IMG/VR virus record: IMGVR_UViG_3300006921_000176
Span: 1 to 22,540 of that record
Reading direction: 5' to 3' (one strand)
Source of the DNA: a virus
Length of the DNA stretch: 22,540 nucleotides
The notes under the pieces were generated by a model. That model made no database searches. It was not told where the DNA came from and saw nothing but the letters and a program-made list of their open reading frames with translations. Shown here piece after piece: positions 1 through 21,049 of the stretch. Positions within the stretch are counted from its first letter, which is position 1. Each line of letters starts with the position of its first letter. The position numbers and the translations under genes were made by a program.

Positions 1-3000
1 TCGCTCAATAGCTTTCTGGTCTTTACCACTTACAGCCATTAAATCAATCCATTCTGTGCCTTTCTTAGGAGTATTTTTATCTCTCTGTTTAGGCATATGA
101 GATAGAGCTTGCCTAATATACTCTGCAGTTTTCATGTCTTTTAGTTCAAGCTTCTTTGATTTAATATCTTTAATAATGTTTTCAGATAAAAGTTTAGGCT
201 GGTCTACAGTCTTCTCTCTTACTTGATTCATTTTTTCAACTAAATTATCATACGTCTTATACCATCTATCTTTTATCTCTCTTGGGATCGCATCTGATCC
301 ATGAATCTCTCTTTTGTATTCTAATACCCCTACTTTATCTGCACCTACAGATCTTTGCTTACCTGTAAATGGAGACATTAACATAGTATAATACATATTT
401 AATACAGGCTCTGGGCTTATGTTTTTATTTGATTTATATAAATCGTTTGTAATAGCCTCGACATCAGCCTTAACAGCATTGTCAAATACTTGTTGCTGTA
501 TTGCTTTGTCTCTTTCATTTCTTAATTTGTTTTTAGCCTCATTGCTAAGCTTATATAATTGCTTAGTTAATTTCTTATACCCTTTATTTGACTTAGTTTT
601 TATAAGATGTTTTTCCAAACCAATCATTTGTTTATTTAGCATCTCAACAGTAGAAAACTGTCCAAGAGTTTTTCCAAAAATATCTAATCCATAGCTTCTA
701 TCAGCACCACCTAATGTTGTATTTACAGTTGACTGTAATTGTATGTCTAAATCTTTTAATAAAAATTTTGTTTGATTTTCTAAGGCTTTATGTAGCTCTG
801 GTGCAATCTTTACAATCTTAGTATTTACTTTACCATCTATACCTATTGGGTTTTGTGCATTAATATATGTTTCAAGAAACTTTCTATATTCTTGTACTTT
901 TCTACCACCATAGCCATTTTGCCCAGTTATGCCAAGATTTTTATTCATATCCAATACTGCTTCGACAGCATAGCTTTTGTTTTTACCAGCTAGTGTCTCA
1001 ACTGAAGTACCTAATATTTGATCTTCTAGATCCTGAAGCTGTGGCTTAGAAGGTTTTTTTGATGACTTATATAAGCGATAATCTTGAATGTCCTTACCTT
1101 GCTTAACAAGATCAGCTAAAGTTTGATAAACAGGTTTGCCTTTTTCATACTTTATATTCATTACAACATCACCATGCTTAGCTAAACTTATTTTTTCTTT
1201 TCTTGCAGGGTGTGTTATTAATGGATTGTCCCAACCTAAAACAACTCTTTCAGTATCACGTTTATTTAAAGGGTTAGTACCTTTACCTACAGGTTCTACT
1301 AAATGTTTATGCACTATCCATCTAAAAGTTTTGCCTTTTCTATATCCATCAAACCCAAGTAAGCCTTGGGTTTTCCATTCTTTTAATATTTGACTATCAA
1401 TACTTCTAAAGCCATTATTATTTTTAACAGCTTGAGGAGCACGTGCAATGTCTTTTAGTTTACTTGATTCAATCAAAGTTTTAAAAAGACCTGAGTCTTC
1501 TAATGGAAGACTTTCTCCTGTACTTTTATCTATCCTGTGCACTTTAAATAAGGTATTAAAGAACATATCTCTAGCACTAGAATAAGGCTTAACAGTAGGA
1601 TCAGAACTAGCATCTGCTGATTTGTTTACAAATTTAGCTTTAAGATCTCGAAATTCTTGTATCTTATCTTTATTAACTTCTATTTCTAATACATATTCAT
1701 TAGACATAGGAGACATTCTAGGTATATCTACAGTTAATTTTCCCCCATTGTATCTTACGTGATCTGCTATTCCTTGTAAATACATAGCACTAGATAGACC
1801 ACTAGCTAACCCATCTTGCCCAGAAGATGCTCTTTTTGCAACCATAAGTCTAGAATTAGGATCAAACATTATCATTTTAGATTCAATGTCATCTAGTAAT
1901 GTTGGTTTAAATTTTTTACCCTTACTATCTTTAATAATTTTTTGAGACATATTGTATACGTCTTTTGCATTAAGGCTTGTGTCAATAAATTGATCTTCTA
2001 ATCTTTGATTATACTCTTTATCATTAAGCTGTTTGCTCTTGCCATCTTTTTCTTTTTTAATAATGCTTTTTAATTTCTTGGGAGCACTCTGAAATATTTT
2101 AATATAATCTGAATCTTTATCAGCACCACCTAAATAATAATCATCTTTAGAGTGAGTGATTGCTCCAGAGCCATTCTCATTAGTAAAGCCTCCAAGCCTA
2201 AGAACTCTAGTGCCACTAGGAGAGTCAGATGGCACACGTATAACAACGAGGTCAAGGGCGTTATCAACCATCTCTGGAGTAATCCCTTCTGGCAGGGATT
2301 TTTTCCCAGTATGAAACTCCCAAAGCTTGCCAAGAGTGAGTCCTTCGTTGATATTGTCCAAAGCAGTTGGTTCCATTTTAGGGTTTTCCAATTTAGCAGG
2401 CGTGTTCTTATGGTTGTTGTCAAGATATACATGTCCTTCTTTTATTACACCACCATCTAATTTTCTAATTTGATCTGGAGTAACTGGTTTAAGCCAAGCC
2501 TGTCCACCTTCTTTAATAAAAGGATTAGCGTATCGTGAAATAATAAATCTTTTTAAAAATCTTAAATGGTCATCTTTAAAAATGGTTAGTCTAGAATTGT
2601 ATTTATTAATATTGGCTTGTGCAATATTGTCTGTAACTGAATTAAAATCAGTATACATAGATGCATTGTCACCTTTAAAAGTATCTATGTCTAAATCCAA
2701 TCTTTGTATCTTATCAAATAAGAAAGAACCAATTTTAGAATGGCTGTCTTTCCCTACTAAGTGTTTCATTAAAAAATCAAAGGGAAGCTCTCTTATATCA
2801 AGTTTACCAGTTTCAAATTTATTCTGAAGCTCTTGAGTAAATATTTCATTAGACTTGCCTTTAAGCTCTGATGCTTTTTTATCAGCCCATTCAGCAAAAA
2901 CTTTTCCTTCTAAACTTCCTTTTCTTGACTGAGAAGTCCAGTCCATAAAAGCTTCTTGAAAGCCTTTATGATCATAATCAAACTGATTCCATAACTGTAT

Positions 3001-5772
3001 AGGAGTATCTGCACCAGAAATAGATTTCTTATTATTAACAAACGTACCTGTACTTATCTGAATATTTTTAATAGGAGTATTATATATAAAAGCTTCTTGA
3101 GTAGGCCCAAATAAATTAGCCTGATCAGATGTTTCATTTTTTAAAGAATACTCTCCAGTTTTAGCATCGTACTCTAATGGAGTATATTTATGATTACCTT
3201 TTATTTTAAATGCACTACCCAATACGATAGCATCTACTCCAATCCTATTCATAAATTTCTGTAATGCATCTGTTGCTCTAAGTCCACTCGACTTAGTTGC
3301 AAAAGTACCTACCTCACCTTTACCTATATGAACAGGTTTAAACATAGATGCATTTGGCAACCCTATGCTAGGTATTGCTCTATCTGTAAATCTTTGACTG
3401 TATACAACTCCACCATCACTTAAACTTCTATTGTCAGCCCACTTATCTAATTTCATATGTGGCAAAAGATCTTTTATGTCATCAATATATATAGTTTTAA
3501 GATTTCCATCTGGCGTTATATCTACAAATGATTGAGGATCAAGCGATGCCATTTTATTGCCTAACAACTGCATACGTTTATTAAAGTCTGCTACATTAGT
3601 CATATATCTGCCATCAAATAACTTATGCAATCTTTTAACTCCAGATCCTTCTGGTAGTAAATTGTTTATCTTTGCATGATGAAGTATGTTGCTTACGTAT
3701 ATTTGTTCGTACATATCTTTTGTAAAAGATTTTTTGGATAGAGTTTGATCTACTAGTCTTGTAGCAAGATCTACTTTAACATCTTGTCCATAATTATAAG
3801 CTTTTTCCATTTGAGACCTAACCATCTGTGGCGTTAGGCCTTCGTATCCCATCTTAGACATAGAATCCCAAAGCATTTCTTTGGTGATTTCTACTCCATC
3901 TACTTTAGTTTTTAATGGAGCTATAAGTAATTGTTTCTTTGACTTTACTCCACCATATACATACTTGCCTTCACCAAATAAAGCCCTGTGCAACCCTTCT
4001 TGCATTTCAGGCTTAAGACTATAATTTAATTTTCCATTACTGTAATCTGGGCTTTGATCTAATATTCTAACTGCATTGCCTTTCTTATCAACAAAGTGTG
4101 TCATCGTTTCAAACTTTTCACCAGTCAATTGCTCAATAGGGAGCTTGTTATGCCTTTCTCCTATTTGAATTCCATTGTTACCAATTTTATGTGCACCTCT
4201 ACCTAAGGTAACATCTGCAGGGTTCTGCCCTTGAGTAAAATAAACTGATTCTACCATAGGAGAAGCTTCTGATATAAACCACTTTCGTAAATCTTGACTT
4301 TCTTGTTCTTTTAACTTTCTATCTAATGTTTTTTCTACCTTAGAAATAAACTGTTCTGTATTAACTTGGTTGTTTTTAATAGACGAATCTTTATGTTCAA
4401 TAATTCTTTTAGCTAAATGCCCTTCACTTGTAAATACATTTTTAACTGAAGGGAACATTTTCTTTGCTATCTTATTTACATTTATATCTGGGATCTCAAC
4501 TGGATCATTGAAATCCATTGCCACATCTGGTCTAGTCTGCTTTGTTTTGGTAGGCTCATTAATACGAGATGCCATTGCATTTTTATATAAGTCTCCTGCT
4601 TTTTGGCCATACCATATTCTCATTTGAGATTCAGAAGCATTGTTCCCCAGTATTCTTTTGGCTTCAGCTTTAGCATTAATGTGAGGATAAAAGTGTTCTA
4701 GGTATCTTAACGCTTGACCAGTAGTTCCACCATAACCCATAGAATTAGGCTTACCATCAAGCATTTTACTGTCTTTAGGCACAGGATGATCAAATAGCAA
4801 ATATTCTTTAGCCTCATTGCTAAGCTCTCTGTATCTAGGACTACGTGTAGGATCTAAGGTTTCTGGGATACCATCTCTTTCTGTTAGCAACCTTCTGCTT
4901 AATAGATACTTACCAGCTTCCACTTCTTTAACTGGTCTAGCATTGTAACCAAAGAATCCACCTAATAGGTATTCATAGATTTGCATCTCTGTAGGCTCGC
5001 CTCTAAGAGTAGCAGGAAGACCTGTTACAGCAGAACCTAGTCCCATACGCAACAATTTATTTGCGTGCTCTACTTGTTCAGGAGTTCCTTTATGGAATCT
5101 AGATAAGTTTGCAAAGTTACCAATACCACCAAAGGCTCCACCTGCTATAGCACCACCTATAAAAGAATCTATAATTACGTCTGGCCCTTTCCATATACTA
5201 GAAACTGCTGATGCACCTGCTAGACCAACAGCTTCGTCTGCAATAGCTCTAGTCTTAGCTCCACGTTTCATATAGTCTAAGGCATCTGCTCCAGATCTTT
5301 TCAAACCTCTTTGGAATAATTCTTGAGATTTCTTTTGAGCAATCATAGGTATAGACTTATGTCCAATAAAATCTATACCATTCATAACAGAACTAGTGAT
5401 CTTACCTGCGAGAATATCTGTGCTTTTCTTACCAGTAAATGCACCTATTGCTTTAGCCATACCTACTATAGGAACCTTCATTATACTAGGAGCAAAACCT
5501 GCAAGGTGTCCTAACTGTCTAAAGATAGCCTCACCTGTATTCCTAGGTTCTTTAGGCATCAAGTCTAGTGTGGTGAATCCTTCTATGAATCCAGCACTAG
5601 CTTGTTGCATAGCACGTGTTAAGCTAAAAGGACTTGTGCTCCTTTTAAAACTGATCTGATGTTGTTCAGCAAGCTGTTCCAGTTCATCCAACTGATCATC
5701 GTTGAACATATCTGGATTAGCCCTGTACTGGTTAACTAAGCTGTTAACCTTGTAGGCTTCGTATTGATTCAT
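1..5772 (-). CDS. Giant virion protein, probable two-barrel virion RNA polymerase (crAss gp66-like), 3' end beyond window
   Basis: The frame opens with ATG at 5772 and stays open for 1924 codons to the window edge, so the C-terminus is missing. A first double-psi barrel is suggested at about residues 786-858: D786-G-G, then A-T-K827-S, then S853-A-F-K856-I-K-G after a helix-like stretch. This order resembles the D-A-Q, h-K-N-S and S-A-V-K-V-G motifs I recall from crAss-like gp66. The second barrel is suggested by V-V-I-R1179-V-P-x-x-S-P-S-G followed by Y-L-G-G-A-D1218-K-D1220-S-D1222, matching the R-x-P ... G-x-D-x-D-x-D loop whose aspartates bind the catalytic magnesium ions in two-barrel RNA polymerases. 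Residues about 150-225 are rich in glycine and alanine and could act in membrane passage. Residues 1-45 resemble the N-terminus of the upstream 245-residue protein. The gene follows the ejection proteins, so I infer it is packaged and injected to transcribe early genes. The family assignment rests on remembered motifs, not a search; a non-polymerase large virion protein remains possible. Confidence 0.68.
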   Translation of the reverse strand, partial: MNQYEAYKVNSLVNQYRANPDMFNDDQLDELEQLAEQHQISFKRSTSPFSLTRAMQQASAGFIEGFTTLDLMPKEPRNTGEAIFRQLGHLAGFAPSIMKVPIVGMAKAIGAFTGKKSTDILAGKITSSVMNGIDFIGHKSIPMIAQKKSQELFQRGLKRSGADALDYMKRGAKTRAIADEAVGLAGASAVSSIWKGPDVIIDSFIGGAIAGGAFGGIGNFANLSRFHKGTPEQVEHANKLLRMGLGSAVTGLPATLRGEPTEMQIYEYLLGGFFGYNARPVKEVEAGKYLLSRRLLTERDGIPETLDPTRSPRYRELSNEAKEYLLFDHPVPKDSKMLDGKPNSMGYGGTTGQALRYLEHFYPHINAKAEAKRILGNNASESQMRIWYGQKAGDLYKNAMASRINEPTKTKQTRPDVAMDFNDPVEIPDINVNKIAKKMFPSVKNVFTSEGHLAKRIIEHKDSSIKNNQVNTEQFISKVEKTLDRKLKEQESQDLRKWFISEASPMVESVYFTQGQNPADVTLGRGAHKIGNNGIQIGERHNKLPIEQLTGEKFETMTHFVDKKGNAVRILDQSPDYSNGKLNYSLKPEMQEGLHRALFGEGKYVYGGVKSKKQLLIAPLKTKVDGVEITKEMLWDSMSKMGYEGLTPQMVRSQMEKAYNYGQDVKVDLATRLVDQTLSKKSFTKDMYEQIYVSNILHHAKINNLLPEGSGVKRLHKLFDGRYMTNVADFNKRMQLLGNKMASLDPQSFVDITPDGNLKTIYIDDIKDLLPHMKLDKWADNRSLSDGGVVYSQRFTDRAIPSIGLPNASMFKPVHIGKGEVGTFATKSSGLRATDALQKFMNRIGVDAIVLGSAFKIKGNHKYTPLEYDAKTGEYSLKNETSDQANLFGPTQEAFIYNTPIKNIQISTGTFVNNKKSISGADTPIQLWNQFDYDHKGFQEAFMDWTSQSRKGSLEGKVFAEWADKKASELKGKSNEIFTQELQNKFETGKLDIRELPFDFLMKHLVGKDSHSKIGSFLFDKIQRLDLDIDTFKGDNASMYTDFNSVTDNIAQANINKYNSRLTIFKDDHLRFLKRFIISRYANPFIKEGGQAWLKPVTPDQIRKLDGGVIKEGHVYLDNNHKNTPAKLENPKMEPTALDNINEGLTLGKLWEFHTGKKSLPEGITPEMVDNALDLVVIRVPSDSPSGTRVLRLGGFTNENGSGAITHSKDDYYLGGADKDSDYIKIFQSAPKKLKSIIKKEKDGKSKQLNDKEYNQRLEDQFIDTSLNAKDVYNMSQKIIKDSKGKKFKPTLLDDIESKMIMFDPNSRLMVAKRASSGQDGLASGLSSAMYLQGIADHVRYNGGKLTVDIPRMSPMSNEYVLEIEVNKDKIQEFRDLKAKFVNKSADASSDPTVKPYSSARDMFFNTLFKVHRIDKSTGESLPLEDSGLFKTLIESSKLKDIARAPQAVKNNNGFRSIDSQILKEWKTQGLLGFDGYRKGKTFRWIVHKHLVEPVGKGTNPLNKRDTERVVLGWDNPLITHPARKEKISLAKHGDVVMNIKYEKGKPVYQTLADLVKQGKDIQDYRLYKSSKKPSKPQLQDLEDQILGTSVETLAGKNKSYAVEAVLDMNKNLGITGQNGYGGRKVQEYRKFLETYINAQNPIGIDGKVNTKIVKIAPELHKALENQTKFLLKDLDIQLQSTVNTTLGGADRSYGLDIFGKTLGQFSTVEMLNKQMIGLEKHLIKTKSNKGYKKLTKQLYKLSNEAKNKLRNERDKAIQQQVFDNAVKADVEAITNDLYKSNKNISPEPVLNMYYTMLMSPFTGKQRSVGADKVGVLEYKREIHGSDAIPREIKDRWYKTYDNLVEKMNQVREKTVDQPKLLSENIIKDIKSKKLELKDMKTAEYIRQALSHMPKQRDKNTPKKGTEWIDLMAVSGKDQKAIER

Positions 5773-5775
5773 TTA

Positions 5776-6513
5776 TTATAGTGTAGCTGGATCAATAGTA
5801 TTTAGTAAACTCCTATCGTAGAATCTTACTCTGCCTTGATCTCCTATGTTGCTATAAGGTATTTGGTTAGGTCTCCAACGAGTTCTTGGAGCATACATTC
5901 TATTCATACCTTTATAAAACCCATCTACTGCATTGTCATATGCAGTAGCTACTCTGCCTCTGTTCATAGAAGTAATTCCTTTTGCACTTGCATTTCTATA
6001 AACACTTCCTGCTTCATCAAAAGCATTTCTAACTCTACCTACGCCTTCACCCATCTTTTCAAAGTTAGGCCTCCATTTTACAGACCTTGCTCTATCCATT
6101 ACTTTGCCACCTACATTCCTAGCGTAGCCTGCTCCTTTAGCACCTGCTTGAAGCCCTGCTTTACCTACTGCTTTACCACCAGCCCACATTGCACCTCTTC
6201 CTGCCCATCCAGCTCCTAGCGTAGGAACAGCACCAAGTAACCCAAGTCTACCTGCCCATTTATCAGCATCTGTTTCACCAAATGTATCTTCACCTCTAGA
6301 TTTAGGTCTCCATGAATTAGGAACCATGCCTAATGCCAAACTATCTACTGCATCAAAAGCTAGCTTCCTACCAAATTTGCTTTCCCTTGGAAAACGTATA
6401 CCTAATCTTTTAGCTTCTCTTGCAATCTTTTCTGCTTGTTCGTCTGTAAACTGATCAGGATTACGTCTGTACTGCCTCATCAAGTCTTGGAACATTTCCA
6501 TTCTACTTACCAT
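5776..6513 (-). CDS. Probable internal virion / ejection protein sharing an N-terminal module with the giant protein
   Basis: A 245-residue basic protein. Residues 11-45 (L-M-R-Q-Y-R-x-N-P-D-x-F-x-D-x-Q, then I-x-F-x-R) align residue for residue, offset by one, with residues 12-46 of the giant protein that follows. Residues about 85-135 are rich in Gly, Ala and Trp (repeated G-W-A-G-R-G, A-G-G-K-A, A-G-A-K-G), like the amphipathic segments of phage ejection proteins that insert into the host envelope. The C-terminal half is rich in Arg and Asn. The ATG at 6513 has GGAGA about nine bases upstream. The gene ends in tandem TAA-TAA, directly followed in the same frame by the ATG of the giant protein. 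I recognise no named family; the ejection role is inferred from composition and neighbours. Confidence 0.6.
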   Translation of the reverse strand: MVSRMEMFQDLMRQYRRNPDQFTDEQAEKIAREAKRLGIRFPRESKFGRKLAFDAVDSLALGMVPNSWRPKSRGEDTFGETDADKWAGRLGLLGAVPTLGAGWAGRGAMWAGGKAVGKAGLQAGAKGAGYARNVGGKVMDRARSVKWRPNFEKMGEGVGRVRNAFDEAGSVYRNASAKGITSMNRGRVATAYDNAVDGFYKGMNRMYAPRTRWRPNQIPYSNIGDQGRVRFYDRSLLNTIDPATL

Positions 6514-6514
6514 T

Positions 6515-7117
6515 TTATTCTTCTCCGAAATAACCTTTCATTAACGATTGACCAGTCTGTTGCAAATAGTCCAACAGTCCTATGTCTCCTCTATTTTGAA
6601 TTTTACCTACTAAACTTTCGTCCATTTTAGGCTCTATTAACTTTCCTTCTTTTCGTAAAGTAGCTTCAGCCATTTTAGCAGGAGTTTGATATTGATAAAA
6701 CTCCCATCCATCTTTACCATGTACGTCTGGCTTAAACCAGAAAGATTCTTTTTCATTTGCAGGGCCATCGTGCAATAGATTAGCTTTTTCTGCAACTTGT
6801 TGCTGGGCTTTATTCTTTTGAACTTTAAAGTCAACAACTCCACGTATTAAATCCCTTTCATTTTGCATAGCTTGTTGCTGATCCTGAAAGTTCTTCTTAG
6901 TCATGTTTAATGCTTGATCTTGAAAGTATCTATTGTTTTCCATAGTCTGTCTTTGGATATCAATACGCTGTTTTTCATTCTCCATCATCTTAGCCTTATG
7001 CTTATTCTCATTATGCATACGAACTCCATCTAAGAAAGAACGTGCAGTATCTCTACCACTTTGTGAAATTAGATTTGCATAACTTGCGTTTTGCATTGCT
7101 GGTACATATAAACTCAT
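6515..7117 (-). CDS. Probable internal virion protein, coiled-coil
   Basis: A 200-residue protein. Residues about 35-110 form a long, highly charged, Gln-rich helix with repeated E-x-x-R/K and Q-x-x-Q patterns, likely a coiled coil. The C-terminal third is mixed, with W-F-K-P, G-W-E-F-Y-Q-Y and a C-terminal G-D-I-G-L-L-D-Y-L-Q-Q. There is no signal peptide or membrane segment. GGAG lies nine bases before the ATG. The gene sits between the Gln/Asn-rich protein and the 245-residue protein with no spacing, which places it in the ejection-protein block. T7 gp14-16 and crAss cargo proteins occupy similar positions, but I see no sequence identity to them. Confidence 0.5.
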   Translation of the reverse strand: MSLYVPAMQNASYANLISQSGRDTARSFLDGVRMHNENKHKAKMMENEKQRIDIQRQTMENNRYFQDQALNMTKKNFQDQQQAMQNERDLIRGVVDFKVQKNKAQQQVAEKANLLHDGPANEKESFWFKPDVHGKDGWEFYQYQTPAKMAEATLRKEGKLIEPKMDESLVGKIQNRGDIGLLDYLQQTGQSLMKGYFGEE

Positions 7118-7120
7118 ATA

Positions 7121-7957
7121 TTATCTCCAATTTAAATCGTTATTACCACCTACTGGCATACCTTGTGGCATTCCTCCACCAAACATATTTTGCATTCCAC
7201 CCCATGCTGAACTAGCCATATTACTTAAGCCTTGAGTAGGGATACTTCCTGTCATTCCAAGAAGGCTAGATCCAGCACCCATAATAGCTTGATTGGTAGC
7301 ATTTTTATGTGCCCATGAATTCTGAGCATTAGCACTATCTTGATTAAACTGTGATGTCTTTAGATATTGATTGTACTGGTTCTGATTCTGTGCATTGAAC
7401 TGATCATTATTCAACTGCCTAGCATCTATCTGACTTCCTAATCCACCTGCTTGAGCATACATATTTCCTTGTTGCCCATATGCATTCATTCCCAATTGAC
7501 CAAATTGTCCTGCTTGATTTACACTATTCTGCCTTATTTGATTTGTGGCATTTAATAAGCTTTCAGCACCTTGGTTTCTACGAACATGCCCTAATAAATT
7601 AGATAAGTTTTTAGGGCCACCAGTTCCCATAACTGCTTCCCTAATGTTATTCATTTGAGTAGTATTGGCATCAGCTACCTGTGTCCCTGCCTGTGCTATT
7701 TGGCTTTGATTGTATGCACTATTAGGATCAATCATATCTTGATACTGCTGATTAAACGTATTACCCATTTCTCCTAAGTTTCCAGCAGTACTATTTAAAT
7801 TATTAATAGATGCTAACATATTTGGATTTGCTGAATACTCTGGTGTAGCTAAGTTAAAACTAAAATCTTGATTTAAAGTCCTAGGCTTATTCTGGGCAGA
7901 TCTTACAGCTCCGTAAGCTGATACCCCTGCTCCTATTAATGCTAATGGTACTGGCAT
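7121..7957 (-). CDS. Probable DNA-ejection / internal virion protein, Gln/Asn-rich
   Basis: A 278-residue protein opening with a short hydrophobic Gly-zipper-like helix (A-L-I-G-A-G-V-S-A-Y-G-A-V, residues 6-18). A long low-complexity region extremely rich in Gln, Asn, Ala and Gly follows, with many N-Q and Q-N pairs (about residues 45-225). The C-terminus is rich in Gly and Met (M-F-G-G-G-M-P-Q-G-M-P). This build, a hydrophobic N-terminus with an alpha-helical N/Q-rich body just after the nozzle gene, is typical of the smallest ejection protein of short-tailed phages. AAGGAG precedes the ATG at good spacing. The identity is inferred from architecture and position. Confidence 0.55.
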   Translation of the reverse strand: MPVPLALIGAGVSAYGAVRSAQNKPRTLNQDFSFNLATPEYSANPNMLASINNLNSTAGNLGEMGNTFNQQYQDMIDPNSAYNQSQIAQAGTQVADANTTQMNNIREAVMGTGGPKNLSNLLGHVRRNQGAESLLNATNQIRQNSVNQAGQFGQLGMNAYGQQGNMYAQAGGLGSQIDARQLNNDQFNAQNQNQYNQYLKTSQFNQDSANAQNSWAHKNATNQAIMGAGSSLLGMTGSIPTQGLSNMASSAWGGMQNMFGGGMPQGMPVGGNNDLNWR

Positions 7958-7958
7958 A

Positions 7959-8210
7959 TTATTTCTCCTTAAAATTCATTGCTGTTGCAACCCACCCTTC
8001 TTGGGCACGCCCTTGTATTTCATAAGATCCATCACCTAATCGTATGAGTCTTATGTCTCCTTCTTTACCTGTATAAGATTTATCTTCTACAGTTACCTCG
8101 CTACTATTGACTGACTCAATCAAAGAATTGAGGTCATCATAAATTTGTTTTAAAGCCCTGCTTAATTGAGGATCCTGTACTGCAGGAGGCTTCTTTTTAG
8201 ATATTGACAT
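7959..8210 (-). CDS. Small probable virion-associated protein
   Basis: An 83-residue protein. Residues 13-38 look helical (Q-D-P-Q-L-S-R-A-L-K-Q-I-Y-D-D-L-N-S-L). Then comes a compact beta module, G-D-I-R-L-I-R-L-G-D-G-S-Y-E-I-Q-G-R, ending G-W-V-A-T-A. Similar G-D-I-R ... G-x-Y-x-L ... G-W modules occur in phage fibre and tail proteins, so a small trimeric tail or head decoration role is possible. AGGAG lies seven bases upstream of the ATG. The start overlaps the 3' end of the nozzle-type gene by 14 bases, suggesting coupled translation. Confidence 0.5.
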   Translation of the reverse strand: MSISKKKPPAVQDPQLSRALKQIYDDLNSLIESVNSSEVTVEDKSYTGKEGDIRLIRLGDGSYEIQGRAQEGWVATAMNFKEK

Positions 8211-20161: not shown

Positions 20162-21049
20162 TTAAGCTGTTCTTAGGTAAATCTCAGTACCAGATGTATC
20201 GTATACTAATCCACCTACTGGTGCTTCTGTGTCACTTGCCCCAGGAGTTCCATTCTTATTTACATTGCTCATTAAAGCAGTAGATGTAGAAGGAAAATTA
20301 GAACTTGAATCATCAGAACCAGTTGCCCATGCACCTAAAGATTCATCCCAGAATAGATGCTTATACTGGTCTCCAGTAGCATCTGCCCTATTGGCTACAA
20401 TACCAGTATCAACTGCTGTTGAACCTGACAAATCAGAGTTTAATAACATCTTGTTATCAGCAATCTCTAATGTTTCTGTAGCTGTGCTAAAGGTTGTACC
20501 ATCAACTACCAAGTTTCCAGCAATCGCTAGGTTTCCAGATATGTTTGTGATAGCCTGTGTTGCATCTACAGATAACACACCAGAACTATGGCTAATACCT
20601 GTACCAGCCACGTTTGGGTCTAGTGTAAGCGTAATGTTTTCATTTGAAGCTTGGTTAGTTGTGAAGTCTCCACCCGTAATTAAACCATCCCCAGCAGTAA
20701 TAGTAATTGTTGCATTTTCTGGTACACTTGGTGTAAGCCAACCTACAGTTCCATCTCCTTCTGATTTTAAAACCTGTCCAGAAGTTCCATTGCCCAATGC
20801 ACCATCATTCTTATCACGAAAAAGATTGGCAGTAATAGATGCATTTGCAATTTCGTCATTTTCTACTACATTATCAGCTAGTGTCAATGCTAATGATACA
20901 TTTCCAGAACCATCAAAGCTTACTGCTGAAGCTGTAGCATTTCCCGTAATTGAAAAATCTCTTGCTGTTCGTAATATAGTAGCTGAAGCCGCCTCCTGAG
21001 CAATATGCCCTGTCGAGTCTTCAACTACAATCTGTTTATATGTTGCCAT
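20162..21049 (-). CDS. Fibre-like structural protein
   Basis: A 295-residue protein opening M-A-T-Y-K-Q-I-V-V-E-D-S-T-G-H-I, close to the first residues of the giant fibre. Middle sections are Gly/Ser/Thr/Asn-rich beta stretches: G-T-S-G-Q-V-L-K-S-E-G-D-G-T-V-G-W, I-T-A-G-D-G-L-I-T-G-G, I-S-G-N-L-A-I-A-G-N-L-V-V-D-G-T. The G-Q-V-L-x-S-x-G-D-G-x-V-x-W motif is widespread in phage fibres. It ends G-L-V-Y-D-T-S-G-T-E-I-Y-L-R. GGAGA lies upstream of the ATG. It is probably a short fibre or a fibre-attachment protein. Confidence 0.7.
   Translation of the reverse strand: MATYKQIVVEDSTGHIAQEAASATILRTARDFSITGNATASAVSFDGSGNVSLALTLADNVVENDEIANASITANLFRDKNDGALGNGTSGQVLKSEGDGTVGWLTPSVPENATITITAGDGLITGGDFTTNQASNENITLTLDPNVAGTGISHSSGVLSVDATQAITNISGNLAIAGNLVVDGTTFSTATETLEIADNKMLLNSDLSGSTAVDTGIVANRADATGDQYKHLFWDESLGAWATGSDDSSSNFPSTSTALMSNVNKNGTPGASDTEAPVGGLVYDTSGTEIYLRTA

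Follow-up and report, generated by a model that had tools for sequence, protein, structure and literature searches.

The window, the whole stretch of DNA analysed here (22,540 nucleotides), is a 22.5-kb virus record of IMG/VR (IMGVR_UViG_3300006921_000176). Read from right to left, it carries tail genes, long tail-fibre-like proteins, an M15 endolysin, a metallophosphoesterase, a 1050-aa structural protein, three small cassette proteins and, last, a giant protein whose gene is cut by the record end. The features are:

1..5772, minus strand: giant protein gene, 1924 codons with the 3' end missing, in which a two-barrel RNA polymerase is flanked by an N-terminal module and a long C-terminal stretch
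1393..4275, minus strand: RNA polymerase region, residues 500-1460 of the giant protein (AlphaFold2 model with Foldseek and VIA matches)
1750..1860, minus strand: candidate bridge helix, residues 1305-1341 (AlphaFold2 model)
2092..2508, minus strand: second barrel region, DPBB-A like, residues 1089-1227 (predicted strands, residue map and conservation)
3034..3426, minus strand: first barrel region, DPBB-B like, residues 783-913 (predicted strands, residue map and conservation)
4873..5772, minus strand: N-terminal module, residues 1-300, conserved in the family
5776..6513, minus strand: 245-aa probable internal virion or ejection protein, with its N-terminal ~40-75 residues in common with the giant protein
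6515..7117, minus strand: 200-aa cassette protein with no family assigned (open reading frame and PHROG search)
7121..7957, minus strand: 278-aa Gln/Asn-rich cassette protein, conserved in relatives
8197..11349, minus strand: 1050-aa probable tail-tip or nozzle-type structural protein, judged by position and sequence character only
11342..12115, minus strand: calcineurin-like metallophosphoesterase of PHROG 221, to which phi14:2 gp86 also belongs
12124..12525, minus strand: M15-type endolysin (Pfam and PHROG searches)

The giant frame opens with the ATG at 5772 and is stop-free to base 1, which is the contig edge. A sequence-only reading of this DNA had described a 1924-codon frame open at the edge; the frame stands, with its strand corrected to minus (5772 to 1). 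Full-length giant proteins of IMG/VR relatives are 2453-3305 aa and, thus, the window carries about the first 60% of the protein. Wider IMG/VR scans recover approximately 35 loci of the giant-protein family; the giant protein of locus L003 is 56-59% identical to that of the window, and that of L005, which is complete at 3119 aa, is 46-47% identical. Searches of Pfam, PHROG and (by single sequence) the PDB with the giant protein yield no significant match, and tblastn against 50,697 phage records yields none. An interferon helical region, the sole match in a profile search of PDB sequences, is judged to be a chance hit.

The motifs that suggested a polymerase to the sequence-only reading (D786-G-G, A-T-K827-S, S-A-F-K856-I-K-G, R1179-V-P-S-D-S-P-S-G and G-A-D1218-K-D1220-S-D1222) are all present at the residues it gave. 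In an alignment of 35 cores (the window and 34 IMG/VR sequences that are 20-57% identical to it), D786, G787, K827 and K856 are invariant, as is N731-K-R, an addition to the motifs picked earlier. R1179, P1181, D1218, D1220 and D1222 are kept in each aligned sequence long enough to include them, and the x positions of the triad vary (GADKDSD, GADKDAD, GADHDID, GADLDGD and GMDKDID). The triad and the lysine, on whose conservation in homologues the polymerase claim had been staked, are both conserved in this alignment wherever the sequences include them. Invariant D, K, R-x-P and triad residues with free x positions form a catalytic-site pattern; by this comparison of sequences, the motifs are not a product of chance. 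One family member, L019 (IMGVR_UViG_3300014839_000021), has the triad GGADLDGD, nearest to the cellular NADFDGD form, and a GC content of 60%, compared to 31-35% in the other measured contigs.

The first barrel region holds D786, K812, K827 and K856, while the second holds R1179-x-P and the predicted metal-binding triad D1218/D1220/D1222. C-terminal of the triad, the model places a 37-residue helix (residues 1305-1341) that fits a bridge helix and is a candidate for one; it is followed by the conserved N1383...D1387...DP1391-1392. These residues have counterparts in gp66 of the crAss-like phage phi14:2. A gp66 family profile, made from IMG/VR relatives of phi14:2 gp66, matches the 35-sequence profile of the window family with a probability of 96.1 and a score of 92.1, and the alignment is colinear across both barrels and the post-triad region, with every catalytic motif in order. 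The aligned pairs (window-gp66) are D786-D962, K812-K1012, K827-K1027 and K856-K1065 in the first barrel; R1179-R1322, P1181-P1324 and D1218/1220/1222-D1361/1363/1365 in the second; and N1383-N1608, D1387-D1612 and D1391-P1392 with D1616-P1617 after the triad, with a confidence of 8-9 at the paired positions. An earlier 25-sequence profile scores 88.3 against gp66, compared to at most 24.2 for 30 column shuffles, 19.7 for its reversal and at most 58.6 for 30 block shuffles that preserve local motifs. The similarity to gp66 is wholly lost on column shuffling or profile reversal. Direct sequence comparison of the giant protein with gp96 of Thermus phage P23-45 reveals nothing significant.

The predicted fold leads to the same family of enzymes. 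With residues 500-1460 and the family alignment as input, AlphaFold2 returns a core model with a pLDDT of 82.2 and a pTM of 0.83. The top PDB match of this model by Foldseek is gp66 (6vr4, E 6.7e-11), with QDE-1 structures next; the solved structures matched are 6vr4, QDE-1, RDR2, 8f5m, 8f72 and 8h2m, and identity to these solved relatives is 10-13%. Realignment by VIA gives Z scores of 17.9 to QDE-1, 16.7 to RDR2, 12.7 to P74-26 gp62, 12.3 to P23-45 gp64, 11.8 to gp66 (across 663 residues) and 10.4 to P23-45 gp96. The core model, therefore, matches solved two-barrel RNA polymerases, and a fold devoid of double-psi barrels is not what is predicted. The likeness to the gp66 and QDE-1 polymerases that had been drawn from motif order is borne out by the profile match, Foldseek and VIA, and it is virtually certain, on fold and homology, that the middle third of the giant protein belongs to the gp66/QDE-1 clade of single-chain two-barrel RNA polymerases. 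Among predicted viral structures, unnamed entries match the core model best and crAss-like phage proteins come after; similar proteins are, thus, probably unannotated in public databases.

The N-terminal module of the giant protein has a charged start (YRANPDMFNDDQLDELEQLAEQHQISFKR) followed by conserved Gly-rich hydrophobic stretches (GGAIAGGAFGGIGNF and YEYLLGGFFGYN). The module is predicted to be helical, mostly at low confidence (the model of the first 520 residues has a pLDDT of 61). Its start is similar to that of the 245-aa neighbour (BLASTP E 6e-6 in the window), and the equivalent pair in L003 is also similar at the N-terminus (E 1e-8). This common module of ~40-75 residues (YR-NPD-F-D-Q...) in adjacent cassette proteins is perhaps a packaging or ejection signal. 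Profile comparison of the remaining cassette proteins with phi14:2 proteins finds no link except a weak phosphoesterase match.

A subset of the giant polymerase proteins (5 of 39) have an AlkB-like 2OG-Fe(II) oxygenase domain (PF13532) inserted at two different sites. The insertions span residues ~1300-1475 in L005, ~1816-1988 in L008, ~1827-1999 in L015, ~1829-2000 in L119 and ~2094-2262 in L125, with E values of 3e-25 (L005) and 2e-27 (L125), and one of them lies ~100 residues C-terminal of the catalytic triad.

The nearest full (near-complete) relative, G001, encodes a P22-like portal (PHROG 156) and a capsid protein of PHROG 1328, as well as an Erf recombinase, a DnaB-like primase-helicase and a tyrosine integrase. 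The portal and capsid protein of phi14:2 belong to PHROG 6547 and PHROG 11589. By these portal and capsid families, read from G001 since the window stops before the genes in question, the phage is not a member of the Crassvirales. A Shine-Dalgarno-like 4-mer is present at 13 of the 21 window genes versus 11% by chance, and at 1 of the 26 phi14:2 genes. The integrase gene of G001 (L116:7893-8864) adjoins the 3' end of the giant gene; thus, some members of the family may be temperate.

Relatives of the giant protein extend to a Prochlorococcus single-cell genome (AG-436-M02), in which a contig scan using the N-terminal module finds a 46-kb phage-type contig, QCPL01000010.1 (L156, L158 and L159). 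This contig holds a complete relative of the giant protein (2632 aa) with the same cassette; its readable functions are all phage-type, and its terminal terminase is 66% identical to that of G001. The polymerase-core scan of genome contigs finds no match, and 13 other Prochlorococcus genomes have no such relative. The link to Prochlorococcus is suggestive: the contig may come from a cell under infection or from a particle sorted along with the cell. The phage is uncultured and probably marine, the latter solely because of this contig. Two more genes of QCPL01000010.1 resemble 2-oxoglutarate oxygenases by eye (L156:19123-19734 and 20184-20756). Shine-Dalgarno use and lysis genes had looked unlike those of a Bacteroidota phage, and a lineage outside the crassviruses is supported by the portal and capsid families, Shine-Dalgarno use and the Prochlorococcus single-cell relative. 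The structural block of crassviruses carries an IHF gene (PMC7886860); a search for IHF (PF00216) finds none in the family contigs, and phi14:2 itself is also without a match. Of other polymerase types, the T7-like RNA polymerase domain PF00940 has no match in 20 family contigs, nor in the control genomes, and beta'-type RNA polymerase genes are absent from the 20 contigs in a search whose control worked.

A heptamer, CTCTCTT, recurs in the early regions of three relatives, namely G001, G002 and the single-cell contig (e.g., CTCTCTTTAATTATAA, CTCTCTTCTTGTGTCGTAA and CTCTCTTTTTTTTTGTAT), mostly 33-180 bases upstream of gene starts and on the coding strand. The repeats are located as follows:

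L115:14558-17732: CTCTCTT repeats upstream of early genes
L117:1470-5784: CTCTCTT repeats upstream of early genes
L158:222-5994: CTCTCTT repeats upstream of early genes

Upstream regions with the motif number 6 in G001, 4 in G002 and 3 in the single-cell contig, versus 0.14, 0.11 and 0.10 expected; six more distant family contigs have none. CTCTCTT is, thus, a candidate early promoter in the relatives (the window stops short of the early genes), and it might, as a guess, be read by the two-barrel polymerase.

The giant protein likely contains the complete catalytic core of an active, virion-borne, DNA-dependent two-barrel RNA polymerase that is ejected and starts early transcription. Sequence and model establish the homology, the fold, the conserved catalytic residues and the position in the late cassette; packaging, ejection, template and promoter are inferred. 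The protein would be expressed late, alongside those of the tail and of ejection, and loaded into the head; from there it would pass through portal and tail into the host, either together with the DNA or before it, and would transcribe the first phage genes from a promoter that is probably phage-specific (with a CTCTCTT core in the nearest relatives). Packaging and injection are suggested by the position at the end of the cassette, the N-terminal start in common with the neighbour, the Gly-rich hydrophobic stretches and the precedent of phi14:2 gp66, which is recorded as structural by MS/MS. In a crassvirus structure, the polymerase is cargo inside the capsid and is modelled to unfold partially through the tail (PMC10172136); by analogy, a similar route from capsid to tail may apply here.

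Other readings of the giant protein differ in where, or whether, RNA is made. The polymerase could be active yet unpackaged, made late and transcribing middle or late genes in the cell like P23-45 gp64. The non-virion P23-45 gp64 and P74-26 gp62 do have structural Z values a little higher than those of gp66 and gp96, and presence in the virion is what we infer for the giant protein. However, the polymerase is built into a giant tail/ejection-cassette protein whose N-terminal start recurs in a cassette neighbour, and its gene is the last of the late operon and so hardly able to serve late genes first, which leaves this alternative improbable. Somewhat less probable still is a degenerate relative, in which the polymerase fold survives as a structural or DNA-threading element of an ejection protein while RNA synthesis is lost. 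While the strong divergence from solved relatives would be in keeping with such decay, the DxDxD, R-x-P and barrel lysines are conserved above all other residues even at 20-30% identity, and a structural role has no need of them.

Intact residues in a polymerase fold do not by themselves specify a DNA template, and QDE-1 is closest by Z. An RNA-templated enzyme like QDE-1 and RDR2, the two top structural scores, is nevertheless very unlikely: to our knowledge, no RNA-based step occurs in a dsDNA phage of this type. Foldseek and profile similarity are, moreover, highest to gp66, a DNA-dependent enzyme according to PDB 6vr4. That the protein is no polymerase at all, with the motifs falling in order by chance within a large ejection protein, would agree with the lack of matches in Pfam, PHROG and PDB sequence searches, but it is contradicted by the fold search, the controlled profile match and the conservation, and its probability is negligible. 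An ejected, DNA-dependent polymerase remains the preferred reading.

Giant polymerases packaged in virions have a precedent in N4 vRNAP of the Schitoviridae, which is carried by a short-tailed phage and has a T7-like single-subunit fold. The packaging concept is alike, whereas the fold in the window protein is two-barrel. QDE-1 of fungi and RDR2 of plants, the RNA-interference polymerases with the closest solved folds by Z, differ in that they are cellular, RNA-templated in vivo and without a virion role. Like the window protein, phi14:2 gp66 has both barrels in a single chain, its catalytic motifs pair one to one with those of the window, and its giant gene lies near the end of a late structural block that includes an endolysin and a PHROG 221 metallophosphoesterase. 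By contrast, identity to gp66 is ~10-14%, the triad is GADKDSD in the window and GSDFDID in gp66, and the core here is embedded in a protein that reaches 3,305 aa, with an ejection-like N-terminal module before it and a long C-terminal part after it. The portal and capsid families also differ, and the family contigs are mostly ~35-50 kb compared to 100-kb genomes. Crassvirus polymerases are described in PMC7886860. The two-barrel fold is also common to the window core and to the virion gp96 and non-virion gp64 of P23-45. According to PMC10770324, gp96 too is a fusion with a tail protein that is ejected, namely the tape-measure protein; the paper also discusses polymerase fusions in crAss-like phages and reports, from a survey, that two are encoded in many of the viral genomes that have such polymerases. 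P23-45 differs in its very long tail and tape-measure fusion, while the portal here falls in PHROG 156 (P22-like) and no tape-measure protein is seen.

The sequence-only reading held that this phage would extend virion polymerases of the two-barrel fold to another lineage. A further lineage is indeed added, but in view of P23-45 (PMC10770324), it is one more and not the first outside phages of Bacteroidota. The kind of enzyme is, thus, already known (gp66 and P23-45 gp96), while the lineage, the fusion architecture and the AlkB insertions appear undescribed; open-licence papers yield no description of the lineage, and the supplement of PMC10770324 may list it. The broadest proposal, which falls a little short of an even chance, is that a whole uncultured lineage with a P22-like portal, with some members in marine picocyanobacteria, injects a single-chain two-barrel polymerase within a giant ejection protein independently of the crassviruses, reads its own CTCTCTT-core promoter in one clade and carries an AlkB-type dioxygenase in some of the chains.

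Single-chain two-barrel polymerases connect phages with the eukaryotic polymerases of RNA interference; few of the phage members have structures. The 35 aligned cores and one Prochlorococcus single-cell relative form a new, well-sampled family beyond the crassviruses and Thermus phages, which offers a candidate promoter and a compact core. If the polymerase is injected, phages of the open ocean would bring their own transcription enzyme into the cell.
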